This document shows positions 7,164 to 64,000 of a DNA stretch of 64,000 nt, in pieces; position 1 is the stretch's first letter, and each line of letters begins with the position of its first letter. Source of the DNA: Dictyostelium firmibasis (taxonomy: Eukaryota; Evosea; Eumycetozoa; Dictyosteliales; Dictyosteliaceae); the NCBI GenBank assembly GCA_036169595.1, contig CM069765.1, positions 6,450,001 to 6,514,000 of the forward strand, written 5' to 3'. The notes under the pieces are model-generated. The model worked only from the letters and a program-made list of their open reading frames with translations, ran no database searches and was not told where the DNA came from. Position numbers and translations under genes: made by a program.

Positions 7164-10009
7164 ATGTTAAATTTTAATAAGTACCATATATTTAGTTTGT
7201 TCTTTTTTTTACTTTTTTTTTCAAATGTCAATAGTCAAACCAATTGTATATATAAAGGTGCAGGTGATGGATATAACATAAACATAAATGCCTATCAGCT
7301 TCAGAATTACAAGTTCGTATTTTTTTTTTTTTTTTTTTTTTTTTTTCCCAAACTGTTAACAATTTGTTAATTTCTTTTATATTTATTATAATTATTATTA
7401 TCATTACTATTGTTATTATTATTATTTTTATCATTATTATTATTATTATTATCGTTATTATTATTATTATTATTATTATTATTATTATTATTATTATTAT
7501 TATTATTATTATTATTATTATTATTATTATTATTATTATTATTATTATTATTATTATTATTATTATTAATATTATTATTATAATTATTATTTTTAGGGCC
7601 AGTAATGGAAGTAATATATATACTGAGTTTTTTTTCTATGATTACATGCTATTTAAATTGGATTATTGTAACAATCCGAGATATTGTGGTAGTTTTAATG
7701 ATGATGCCTTACTATGCGGAATTCCTGTAAAAAACTATACTGCGGATCCTGATGTAAGAGTTTGGATGGGACTTGATGGTACATATTCAAGGAAAGTTAA
7801 TTATAGTGCAAGTGGGGTTAAGCTATCATATGTATCATATTTCCCCTATTATATATGTGAATTTGGTGTTCTTTCAACTATACAATATAAATGTGATCCT
7901 AGTATTAATGGAGCAAACGCAACTGTGAATCATAACCTTATAGGAACTTGTTTTATTGAACTCACAATCTACTCATCTTATTTTTGCCAAACATGTCCAA
8001 ACTGTCCAACTACACATGGTACATGTAATCAAATGAATGGTTGGTGTGATTGTGACGCCTATACCAAAGGTATATATTGTGATCAATTGAATGTTAAGAT
8101 ATCATCGATTGTTGGTCCAACTAATATTGGTGGCATTGTTACAATATTTGGTGATTTTTCAAATATTTACACAAATCGTAATAGTATTAAAATCAACATT
8201 GGGACTTTATCATGTAATAGTGTTTATTTCACCCCAAGTACTTCACAAATTACATGTATCGTTGGAGCAGGTCAATCTTTTCAAAAAATGACATTTTCTG
8301 ATGGGAATGGTCTAAGTTCAACATATGATGGTTTTTATTATAAAGTTCTTTGTTCAAACGATTGTACACCAGGTGGTCGATGTAATGATACCATTGGTAC
8401 TTGTGTTTGCAATGATGAAGCTTTAGGTATTGATTGTAAAACATTAAATTTACAATTGACATCAGTCAATCAAACATTTGTAAGTGGTGGTCAAGTTTTC
8501 TTAAATGGTGATTTCTCAAAAGTCAATCATCTCGCTCTCAATGTCGAAATTGGAGGTCAACAATGTATAGATCCAAAATTAAATTCTTTATTCACAATAT
8601 TGCAATGTAAAATTGGAGCTGGTGAAGGCATTAAAAATATTACAATAACCTCTGGTAAATTATCATTTACAAAGGATGGAGCATTCCAATATCAATATTA
8701 TACATGTCCAAATAGTTGTTCACCTCCACATGGTAGTTGTAATATATATAATGGCGAATGTGTATGTGATAATGAAACTTTTGGTAATAATTGTCAATTT
8801 ATTCAATGTCCACTCAATTGCTCAACAGCATCGCGTGGTACTTGCGATGGTAATACAGGTAAATGTATTTGTAACAATAAATATACTGGTGATGCTTGTC
8901 AATTTATTCAATGTCCACTCAATTGCTCGACACCGTTACGTGGTACTTGTGATGATAATACTGGTATTTGTACATGTGACAATAAATATAGCGGTGATGC
9001 TTGTCAATTTACTCTATGTCCCTTAAATTGTTCAGCACCACATGGTAATTGCGACATAAATACTGGTATTTGTAGTTGCAACAATAAATATAGTGGTATT
9101 GGATGTGAAATTAACGAATGCCCACTTAACTGTTCAACGCCCCATGGTACTTGTAATGTCAATACTGGCGTTTGTACATGTGATAATAAATATAGTGGTG
9201 ATGGATGTGAAATTAGCGAATGTCCACTTAACTGCTCAACGCCTCATGGTACTTGTAATGTTAATACTGGCGTTTGTACATGTGATAATAAATATAGTGG
9301 TATTGGATGTGAAATTAGCGAATGTCCACTTAACTGTTCAACGCCTCATGGTACTTGTAATGTTAATACTGGTATTTGTACATGTGACAATAAACATAGT
9401 GGTGATGGATGTGAAATTACTGAGTGTCCACTTAACTGCTCCCCACCAAATGGTACTTGTAATGTTAATACTGGTATTTGTACATGTGATAATAAACATA
9501 GTGGTAATGGTTGTGAAATTACTGAATGTCCAGTTGGTTGTTCAACAAAACATGGAAGTTGTGATAGTAAGGTTGGTTTGTGTAAATGTGATACTCAAAC
9601 CAAAGGATTGTTATGTAAAGAATCAAGATTAATAATAGAGTCGGCAGATTCAACCAATTCAAATGGTGGTACTACAACTTTAATTGGTTATTTCGGTACT
9701 CCAACATTATTATTAACAATTAAAATAGGTGATTCAAATTGTACAAATATTAAAGTAATCAATGAAACAACATTGATGTGTGACATTGGTGAAGGTGATG
9801 GAATTCATAATGTCACCATTATTGATGATGATCTTTCATATACTGCTATCAACTTATTCAAATATGTCAATCATAAAAAAGAAATCTCAAATATATCCGG
9901 AGGTGCCATCGCAGGTATAACCATTGGTTGTGTTGCAAGTATATCACTACTTGGTGCTGGTGGTTATTATCAATACAGAAGAAACAAAAAGGTTGAACTT
10001 TTTATATAA
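7164..10009 (+). CDS. G1: MRH-like/TIG/EGF single-pass receptor, 853 aa
   Basis: Exons 7164-7312 and 7597-10009 join as AA|GTTCGT...TTTTAG|GGCC, giving 853 residues. Residues 1-24 are a signal peptide. Residues about 27-180 form a cysteine-rich domain (CNNP, LLCGIPVKN, YSASGVKLSY, STIQYKCDP, GTCFIELTIYSSYFC) whose cysteine spacing resembles the MRH fold of mannose-6-phosphate receptors. Then follow EGF 1 (about 183-211), TIG 1 (about 217-300), EGF 2 (about 302-331), TIG 2 (about 335-415), nine consecutive EGF modules to about 722 (eleven in all), TIG 3 (about 725-805), a membrane helix (about 817-840) and the tail YQYRRNKKVELFI. It probably acts at the cell surface. The start is set by the signal peptide; an upstream in-frame ATG lies in the poly-T leader and is unlikely. 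N-terminal variable patches are CGSFNDDALLCG, ADPDVRVW and YFPYYICEFGVLS. The closest copy is G2. Confidence 0.9.
7313..7596 (+). repeat. G1 intron 1: poly-T plus (ATT)n microsatellite
   Basis: This 284-bp intron starts with a T run at about 7320-7346 and continues as imperfect then perfect ATT repeats to about 7585. The same position is occupied by poly-T and ATT tracts in every copy of the family. Approximate lengths are 298 (G2), 191 (G3), 194 (G4), 122 (G5), 306 (G6), 222 (G7), 365 (G8), 132 (G9) and 250 bp (G10). Confidence 0.75.
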
Positions 10010-10329
10010 CAACAATATTTATTTTATATATCAACACATACAGATTTTTTTTTTTTTTTAAAAAAAAAATCATATAAATTTATTCAATAAAAAATTTAAA
10101 ATTTAAAAAATGACCAATTTGTGTATTTTTTTAAATTATAGTTTATTATTTTATTTAAAAGAATAAAGTATCCTTTATAATTCTGATTTATCTGGAACTT
10201 TTAGAAATACATGAAAATTAATTAAAAAATCATCTATGGTATTGTTGATCTAAGAATTAGTTTTTTTTTTTTTTTTATCTAAAGTTATTGTTTGTTTTGT
10301 TTAGAAAATTGTAATGGAATGTAATCCTT
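10010..10329 (+). other. 3' flank of G1
   Basis: Conserved after every G gene: ACAACAATATTTATTTTATAT, a T-run/A-run palindrome (about 10046-10069) and TTCAATAAAAAATTT (10082-10096), which supplies an AATAAA polyadenylation signal. The rest is AT-rich with no coding sequence seen. Confidence 0.6.
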
Positions 10330-62254: not shown

Positions 62255-64000
62255 ATGTTAAATTTTAATAAGTACCATATATTTAGTTTGTTCTTTTTTT
62301 TACTTTTTTTTTCAAATATCAATTGTCAAACCGATTGTATATATAAAGGTGCAGGTGATGGATATAACATAAACATAAATGCCTCTCAGCTTCAGAATTA
62401 CAAGTTAGTATTTTTTTTTTTTTTTTTTTTGTCCAAATTGTTAACAATTTGCTAATTTCTTTTATATTTATTATAATTATTATTATCATTATTATTGCTG
62501 TTATTATTATTTTTATCATTACTTTATTATTATTATTATTATTATTATTATTATTATTATTATTATTATTATTATTATTATTATTATTATTATTATTATT
62601 ATTATTATTATTATTATTTTTATTATTATTATTATTATAATTATTATTTTTAGGGCCAGTAATGGAAGTAATATATATACTGAATTTTTTTTCTATAATT
62701 ACATGCGATTTAAATTGGATTATTGTAACAATACGAGAGATTGTGGTTTATTTAATTTACCAACCTTACTATGTGGAATTTCTGTAAAAAACTATACTGA
62801 GGATCCTGATGAAAGAGGTTGGATGGGATTTGATGGTACAAAATCAAGGATTGTTAGTTATAGTGCAAGTGGGGTTAAGCTATCATATGTATCATTATAT
62901 CCCTATTATGTATGTGATTATGGTGTTCATTCAACTATACAATTTAAATGTGATCCTAGTATTAATGGAGCAAACGCAACTGTGAATCATAACCTTATAG
63001 GAACTTGTTTTATTGAACTCACAATCTACTCATCTTATTTTTGCCAAACATGTCCAAATTGTCCAACAGTATTAAAATCAACATTGGGACTATATCATGT
63101 AATAGTGTTTATTTCACTCCAAACACTTTACAAATTACATGTATCGTTGGAGCAGGTCAATCTTTTCAAAAAATGAAATTTTCTGATGGGAATGGTCTAA
63201 GTTCAACATATGATGGTTTTTATTATAAAGTTCTTTGTTCAAACGATTGTACACCAGGTGGCCGATGTAATGATACCATTGGTACTTGTGTTTGCAATGA
63301 TGAAGCTTTAGGTATCGATTGTAAAACATTAAATTTACAATTGACATCAGTCAATCATACATTTGTAAGTGGTGGTCAAGTTTTCTTAAATGGTGATTTC
63401 TCAAAAGTCAATCATCTCGCTCTCAATGTTGAAATTGGAGGTCAGCAATGTATAGATCCAAAATTAAATTCTTTATTCACAATATTGCAATGTAAAATTG
63501 GAGCTGGTGAAGGCATTAAAAATATTACTATAACATCTGGTAAATTATCATTTACAAAGGATGGAGCATTCCAATATCAATATTATACATGTCCAAATAG
63601 TTGTTCACCTCCACATGGTAGTTGTAATATATATAATGGCGAATGTGTATGTGATAATGAAACTTTTGGTAATAACTGTCAATTTATTCAATGTCCACTC
63701 AATTGCTCAACAGCATCGCGTGGTACTTGTGATGGTAATACAGGTAAATGTATATGTAACAATCAATATACTGGTGATGCTTGTCAATTTATTCAATGTC
63801 CACTCAATTGCTCTACACCGTTACGTGGTACCTGTGATGATAATACTGGTATTTGTACATGTGACAATAAATATAGTGGTGATGCTTGTCAATTTATTCA
63901 ATGCCCACTCAATTGCTCGACACCGTTACGTGGTACTTGTGATGATAATACTGGTATTTGTGCCTGTGACGATAAATATAGTGGTGATGCTTGCCAATTT
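62255..64000 (+). pseudogene. G10: partial G gene with internal deletion, runs off the window
   Basis: Exon 1 is 62255-62403; exon 2 starts at 62654. At about 63066 the sequence jumps from TGTCCAAC to AGTATTAAAATC, losing about 172 bp (EGF 1 and the first part of TIG 1) relative to G9; this shifts the frame. After that, TIG 2 and EGF modules continue with no other lesion noticed to 64000. Module 5 (STPLRGTCDDNTGIC) occurs twice in a row, not seen elsewhere. Head patches are CGLFNLPTLLCG, EDPDERGW and LYPYYVCDYGVHS. The 3' end is outside the window. Confidence 0.8.

Follow-up and report, generated by a model that had tools for sequence, protein, structure and literature searches.

A tandem array in Dictyostelium firmibasis encodes putative recognition proteins with hypervariable, MRH-related heads on a conserved EGF/TIG stalk

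Why do the near-identical genes of a tandem array differ mostly in the head of the proteins that they encode? The question is raised by a stretch of 64,000 nt on a Dictyostelium firmibasis chromosome (C1:6450001-6514000, hereafter the window; the genome assembly holds 31.46 Mb in 12 contigs), which carries a tandem array of genes for proteins with a cysteine-rich N-terminal head and a stalk of EGF and TIG domains. A sequence-only reading of the window had counted ten such genes and proposed a recognition repertoire, with a binding head under diversifying selection and a stalk kept alike by gene conversion. Ten genes do lie within the window, but the array has 11 and extends beyond it, and only eight of the ten are intact. 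We find that change is concentrated in a few head codons and that the head is related by profile to the MRH (P-type lectin) domain. A repertoire of cell-surface recognition proteins is the best reading of the array, and in our judgement a reasonably probable one.

The 11 genes have two exons each. A short exon 1 encodes the signal peptide and residues 25-50, and is followed by a T/ATT-rich intron and one long exon 2. The span first drawn for the array began at 7597, which is correct for exon 2 of the first gene, G1, but misses exon 1. The features of G1 are:

7164..7312, + strand: exon 1, with an ATG, a conserved GT donor and a frame shared with exon 2; signal peptide and head residues 25-50, including the first MRH cysteine, C28
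7597..10009, + strand: exon 2, with the remaining MRH-like head, the EGF/TIG stalk, the hydrophobic segment and a short tail; protein of 853 aa
7682..7708, + strand: hypervariable patch 1, residues 79-87, immediately before the fourth head cysteine, C90
7739..7801, + strand: variable patch 2, residues 98-118
7838..7873, + strand: hypervariable patch 3, residues 131-142, surrounding the fifth head cysteine, C137
7997..10006, + strand: stalk, comprising EGF1-TIG1-EGF2-TIG2, EGF repeats, TIG3, hydrophobic segment and tail

Spliced in the same manner as G1, the seventh gene (G7) yields the public protein P0006 letter for letter. From the N terminus, the proteins run through an eight-cysteine head, EGF1, TIG1, EGF2, TIG2, the EGF repeats, TIG3, a hydrophobic segment and a tail. 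In G1, the hydrophobic segment is single, lies near the C terminus (residues 820-838) and leaves a tail of 15 residues. The array proteins are predicted to reside at the cell surface. Their EGF repeats are 34 aa each and vary in number among copies, and the intact-gene products of 751 to 853 aa step in length mostly by this 34-residue unit. A six-frame search places one Pfam TIG match over the cut-off in each of the 11 copies, and this match is TIG3; TIG1 and TIG2 are named from their likeness to relatives in which Pfam marks both. Protein-level scans do not list TIG for P0001 and P0006, and list it for 10 of 19 related proteins.

Amino-acid differences are concentrated in the head. Among the nine intact genes (G1-G8 and G11), with the variable-number EGF repeats (alignment columns 576-696) excluded from the stalk, 52 of 160 head codons are variable compared with 61 of 548 stalk codons (Fisher p=1e-9). 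Codons with at least three amino acids number 20/160 in the head and 7/548 in the stalk. These fall largely into the three patches picked out in the sequence-only reading (18 of 42 patch codons, against 2 of the 118 other head codons; p=2e-10). That reading had also described multi-base and predominantly replacing changes, and both descriptions hold: differences of at least two bases occur at 18/42 patch codons, and 30 of the 31 variable patch codons alter the amino acid. All eight head cysteines are invariant in 11/11 genes. The near-identity reported for the 3′ flanks extends only a short way, with copies matching G1 for about 50 to 110 bp past the stop and similarity turning patchy farther on (mean p-distance 0.26 over 600 bp, 8 genes).

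The ratio of replacement to silent substitution (dN/dS) separates head from stalk as had been expected. Counted over eight intact genes, with G2 omitted as a near copy of G1 and patch limits of 78-88, 98-118 and 130-142, dN/dS is 1.04 for the head and 0.28 for the stalk, which is under purifying selection. The rest of the head outside the patches (the framework) gives 0.43. Site models were fitted to the whole head, so that no sites were chosen post hoc. Twice the log-likelihood gain (2dlnL) of M2a over M1a is 74.4 for the nine intact genes and 89.1 for all 11, and that of M8 over M8a is 74.3 and 89.6, respectively. The third site class takes about 6% of head codons, with a dN/dS (w) near 11-12. 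Sites with P>0.9 are 82, 85, 86, 102, 131, 133 and 136 in the nine-gene set, and 82, 85, 102, 131, 133, 136 and 138 in the 11-gene set. Null data simulated under M1a reached at most 2.6 without recombination and 6.9 with two alternating trees (40 runs each). These values lie far below those observed, which excludes a model with a single silent rate and no positive selection.

The sequence-only reading had called the head different from that of Tgr proteins. It is not a novel type, being by profile a diverged MRH domain. MRH domains carry six to eight conserved cysteines in order, and the idea came from this cysteine pattern by eye and was afterwards tested by profile. A profile of nine family heads matches CI-MPR (5.3e-9), ERLEC1 (0.0027) and a second CI-MPR entry (0.0036); three of its eight matches at E<=10 are thus MRH proteins, and the other five are unrelated, with E of 0.29 or worse. 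When two further, more distant D. firmibasis heads join the profile (11 heads), 10/10 matches are MRH proteins, the best being CI-MPR at 1.5e-26. All eight head cysteines align with those of MRH proteins. Eight cysteines are present in 22 of 26 family heads, and the other four have 5, 5, 6 and 7, some of them from incomplete gene models. The relationship to MRH is evident at the level of profiles, and the head probably adopts the MRH fold.

The four conserved sugar-contact residues of MRH lectins are largely gone. We set their positions by cysteine spacing in the 22 eight-cysteine heads, which include the 11 array copies and exclude the four heads with fewer cysteines. The Arg position is that of Arg 391 of CI-MPR (PMC7481795), and the Gln, Glu and Tyr positions are those that we take to be canonical, compared only with the CI-MPR letters of the profile alignment. 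Gln and Arg are kept in none of the 22 heads, and Glu and Tyr in one each. MRH-headed genes elsewhere in the same genome retain most or all of them. A ComC_SSD gene on C4 (L025; 7166-9055, - strand, in L047, C4:3999001-4009000) keeps Gln, Arg, Glu and Tyr, as does its MRH-headed neighbour (2682-5228, - strand, in L047; read by eye), and a third MRH-headed gene (L037) keeps Arg, Glu and Tyr and has lost Gln. MRH heads therefore occur on more than one stalk type in D. firmibasis. The family thus seems to be derived from MRH domains of the lectin type, with subsequent loss of the sugar site. Sugar binding is a property of only some MRH domains, and others bind ligands such as IGF2 (PMC4444583).

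The variable codons of the head coincide in part with the equivalent of a known ligand-binding region. In domain 3 of CI-MPR, loop C, which is described as ligand-binding, contains Ser 386 and Ser 387, and an essential residue, Arg 391, follows (passages of PMC7481795). With a fitted numbering offset of 44, these three residues lie 1, 2 and 6 places past the fifth cysteine (C137) in the profile alignment, so that the two serines correspond to G1 residues 138 and 139, within patch 3. Three (131, 133 and 136, nine-gene set) or four (also 138, 11-gene set) of the seven P>0.9 sites fall within residues 131-140 around C137. The two-codon deletion of G8 also falls in this loop C-equivalent stretch; the passages of PMC7481795 on loop C do not state its extent. 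Residues 82, 85 and 86 stand immediately before the fourth cysteine, beside the expected Gln position. The variable residues may form one binding face.

The contrast between head and stalk recurs in other dictyostelids. One of three protein searches returned D. firmibasis proteins only; the other two brought up relatives from D. discoideum, D. cf. discoideum, D. dimigraforme and D. citrinum, and the D. discoideum AX4 member, DDB_G0289399, is annotated as a hypothetical protein. Of the 18 matches that one of these searches gave at E<=1e-10, a single one lies outside this group, a D. purpureum EGF-domain protein (2.5e-11, 16% of the query). We compared 17 proteins, three from D. firmibasis, in a set that includes P0007 (the public model of the broken gene G9) and the incomplete-head proteins P0012, P0014, P0017 and P0024. 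In 136/136 pairs, identity is lower in the head than in EGF1-TIG2, with means of 34% for the head, 64% for EGF1-TIG2 and 75% for TIG3 with the transmembrane segment (TIG3/TM). AX4 P0022 and D. discoideum P0021, for example, share 41% of the head, 92% of EGF1-TIG2 and 98% of TIG3/TM. Six discoideum-group pairs have EGF1-TIG2 identities of at least 91%; their heads are 39-43% identical in five (one of them incomplete) and 96% in the sixth. This sixth pair is P0018 and P0022, both from D. discoideum. Six residues are substituted and two one-residue gaps occur between them, every one within the head, and the part behind the head shows no substitution and a 102-residue step in EGF length. The two proteins could be alleles or paralogues. 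This is a variable-headed receptor family across the discoideum-firmibasis clade. In the literature searched, which excludes most subscription journals, we found no paper naming DDB_G0289399 and none that brings together tandem Dictyostelium genes with EGF-like and TIG domains; the papers listed on mannose 6-phosphate receptors in Dictyostelium are on other subjects, judged by title and opening of the abstract, and those on hypervariability are unrelated. Novelty is accordingly not established.

Within the array, head and stalk appear to have recombined. The pairwise homoplasy index (PHI) lies below all 60 permutations. The head rejects the EGF1-TIG2 tree (approximately unbiased (AU) test, p=0.007), EGF1-TIG2 rejects the head tree (AU p=4e-10), and distances in the head show no correlation with those in the stalk (rho -0.01, nine genes). 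At the sequence level, then, head and EGF1-TIG2 have discordant histories, which indicates recombination between head and stalk. The conflict fits a shuffling of heads among stalks, and selected sites can also distort the head tree.

Several results weigh against a selected and shuffled binding head. The whole-head dN/dS has a bootstrap confidence interval (CI) of 0.69-1.61 and is not clearly above 1. The patches give 2.0 (bootstrap CI 1.18-3.92), an estimate biased upward since they were picked by eye for their variability. The stalk also carries a small M2a signal (2dlnL 12.6), due to one site. This is alignment codon 509, in an EGF repeat, the only place in the stalk where w>1 has P>0.9. 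The head tree is not rejected by the EGF-repeat segment (AU p=0.13) or the C-terminal segment (0.11), and taking out the patches weakens the conflict of the head with the EGF1-TIG2 tree to p=0.06, short of the 5% level. Single heads have no MRH match in Pfam, NCBIfam or PDB sequences, so that the assignment comes from profiles only. A codon class with a ninefold rate and w=1 fits the head about as well as a class with w2=12: freeing w2 over this rate class gains a 2dlnL of 0.5 on the head tree and 1.9 on the stalk tree, against 7.0 on the star tree (w2 3.4). Silent change is also raised 1-4 codons away from the eight codons 82, 85, 86, 102, 131, 133, 136 and 138, with a dS of 0.09-0.14 compared with 0.055-0.065 farther off, an estimate from just 7 to 19 silent sites in each pair. 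In view of the rate-class model, we do not hold positive selection to be proven.

The rate-class fit and the raised silent change would suit a codon-scale mutation hotspot with relaxed constraint, in which mutation, or overwriting by diverged donors, often strikes a few codons of the head without benefit. Such a hotspot would also suit the many variable codons that differ by two or three bases, and the lower transition/transversion ratio (kappa) of the head than of the stalk. It would, however, need to act on single codons interspersed with codons that do not change, among them those of the invariant cysteines. The rise in nearby silent change, 1.4 to 2.3 times on those few sites, is far below ninefold, the head framework is itself constrained, and the head excess recurs in other species. 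We regard the hotspot as unlikely. The proposed diversifying selection on the head thus survives in part: site models beat the simulated nulls, while the hotspot with w=1 fits about equally well on two of three trees. Positive selection on head codons remains favoured, because a hotspot would have to strike single codons between invariant cysteines, and is likely though not proven. The original version of the argument, in which old genes have stalks kept alike by gene conversion and heads that escape it, is likewise improbable. The PHI signal and the tree conflict would suit it, as would the C-terminal segment, whose silent divergence (pS 0.025, CI 0.009-0.045) is below that of the EGF repeats (0.113, CI 0.075-0.155), and the D. 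discoideum relatives with heads near 40% on stalks of 91-93%. Against it, silent divergence in the array is about equal in the stalk (0.060, CI 0.044-0.076) and the head framework (0.067, CI 0.036-0.100; 8 genes), and a GENECONV-type permutation test finds no significant tract (best global p 0.16). No special homogenisation is needed, because silent divergence is nearly the same in both parts; young age, following recent amplification, and constraint on the stalk suffice to explain its likeness.

Two further explanations accept the variation and read its purpose differently. Heads might diversify to escape a binder, such as a pathogen or toxin for which the protein serves as receptor, rather than to gain partners. 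Escape, too, diversifies the exposed loops of an otherwise conserved surface protein, and tandem copies could buffer the loss of one. Eight of the ten window copies are nevertheless kept intact and different, a better fit to a repertoire than to escape of a single target, and we give this explanation little weight. Least probable of all is that the proteins are ordinary glycoprotein-sorting lectins of secretory or lysosomal traffic in which the variation is incidental. The profile matches CI-MPR, CD-MPR and ERLEC1 are proteins of sorting and quality control, and all four contact residues are retained in related D. firmibasis genes. No eight-cysteine family head, however, has the Gln or the Arg site, and the long EGF/TIG stalk would better suit the cell surface.

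The recognition repertoire therefore remains our preferred reading. The proposal of a diversified head on a conserved stalk holds up through the dN/dS contrast, the site models, the uniform deficit of head identity between relatives and the loop C sites. Each copy may bind a different external partner, and variants may have spread because novel specificities were favoured. The head would most likely mediate adhesion or recognition at the end of a stalk whose length is interchangeable, with EGF units gained and lost in 34-residue steps. New heads would arise by point change and by recombination among the tandem copies. Candidate partners are a variable protein or glycan carried by other amoebae and the surface of a microbe. 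A more far-reaching proposal, which we put forward tentatively and would not yet back, is that the discoideum-firmibasis clade has a second recognition system independent of Tgr. In this system, proteins with a common stalk would use a P-type lectin fold without its sugar site as their hypervariable head. Point change and tandem shuffling would renew the heads, with each lineage holding its own set.

Comparison with known systems sets out what is shared. With MRH receptors such as CI-MPR, the array heads have in common the profile match, the eight-cysteine pattern and the loop C region at the fifth cysteine. They differ in the missing contact residues (Glu and Tyr each lost in 21/22 heads), in having one MRH domain on an EGF/TIG stalk and in loop residues that are hypervariable among tandem copies. 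TgrB1 and TgrC1 are described in PMC12324515 (in part) as transmembrane proteins with TIG domains that have undergone local duplication, rapid diversification and recombination. The array proteins similarly have TIG domains and one membrane segment, and are tandem, diversified and recombining; unlike in Tgr, their variation sits in an MRH head, and EGF repeats are present. Of 19 related proteins, four have a match to the Ig_TgrO1 domain, the best with E 0.0028. We treat the likeness to Tgr as an analogy, not as membership. ComC and ComC-like proteins share EGF and TIG modules and a membrane segment with the array proteins, and the same genome has MRH-headed ComC_SSD genes. Unlike ComC, the scanned array proteins P0001 and P0006 lack ComC_SSD, which domain scans detect in the neighbouring P0004, and they lack an LRR head. 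A ComC-like gene at 3350-5941 (- strand) adjoins the array, with LRR_ComC, EGF and ComC_SSD domains and a TIG slightly below cut-off. The ortholog group OG5 153020 combines IPT/TIG, EGF-like and C-type-lectin domains and is lineage-expanded in other dictyostelids, with family sizes of 9, 43, 35 and 50 (passages of PMC4334915). The array resembles it in joining a lectin-type domain to TIG and EGF and in lineage expansion. It differs in having MRH in place of a C-type lectin, and the table entry for OG5 153020 gives no hypervariability.

The remaining copies in the window are:

13064..15719 (exons 13064-13212, 13511-15719), + strand: G2, intact, 785 aa; head almost identical to that of G1
19081..21836 (exons 19081-19229, 19424-21836), + strand: G3, intact, 853 aa
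25634..28083 (exons 25634-25782, 25977-28083), + strand: G4, intact, 751 aa
30570..33049 (exons 30570-30718, 30841-33049), + strand: G5, intact, 785 aa
37360..40125 (exons 37360-37508, 37815-40125), + strand: G6, intact, 819 aa
44383..44896, + strand: truncated extra copy, exon 1 with an altered donor and a short exon 2 remnant
45233..47914 (exons 45233-45381, 45604-47914), + strand: G7, intact, 819 aa; identical to public P0006 (RB653_005520)
51213..54031 (exons 51213-51361, 51727-54031), + strand: G8, intact, 817 aa; patch 3 with a two-codon deletion
55235..57818, + strand: G9, in-frame stop in the head (55739-55741) and frame break at about 56.24-56.30 kb
62255..64000, + strand: G10, head intact; frame lost near 63060; runs beyond the window end

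G11 starts 3.5 kb past the window end (window-equivalent 67478-70264) and is intact. G10 lacks a stretch that G1 has, and the damage in G9 and G10 could reflect real pseudogenes or assembly errors. The assembly combines nanopore and Illumina reads at a total coverage of 739x (PMC11193728, in part), and the main text of that genome paper has zero mentions of EGF, tandem, TgrB or 'gene family'. Two array proteins of D. firmibasis are public, RB653_005520 and RB653_005522. Elsewhere in the genome, an array relic lies at C1:6571583, and a solo paralogue, RB653_006370 (L024, C1:8906140-8906628), has 41% identity to the query in the head region and lacks the Gln and Arg sites. Intron 1 (7313-7596 in G1, and likewise in other copies) consists mostly of ATT repeats, which in several copies read as a long isoleucine run in frame with exon 2 and can mislead calling of open reading frames (ORFs). 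A spacer ORF of about 180-210 aa has been amplified with the array (12128-12766, 36272-36805, 43457-44053, 50172-50768 and 60545-61129). It has no family match, its first 20 residues are a dispersed repeat, and it gives no sign of protein constraint, with replacement divergence (pN) of 0.037 above a pS of 0.014 (crude count over 131 codons in 5 copies). Outside the array, 405-2510 (+ strand) encodes a MIF4G-domain protein with long Gln and Asn runs.

Allorecognition in amoebae, as described in the literature consulted here (PMC12324515), rests on TIG-domain Tgr pairs; the same source reports genomes of ten Dictyostelium isolates. With these isolate genomes and an AX4 member, DDB_G0289399, the family is testable in a model organism, and the head-only differences between P0018 and P0022 offer a concrete starting point. 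If our reading is true, a hypervariable MRH-head family would be a separate candidate for telling kin, prey or pathogens apart, and the MRH barrel would join the folds used by evolution for variable receptors.

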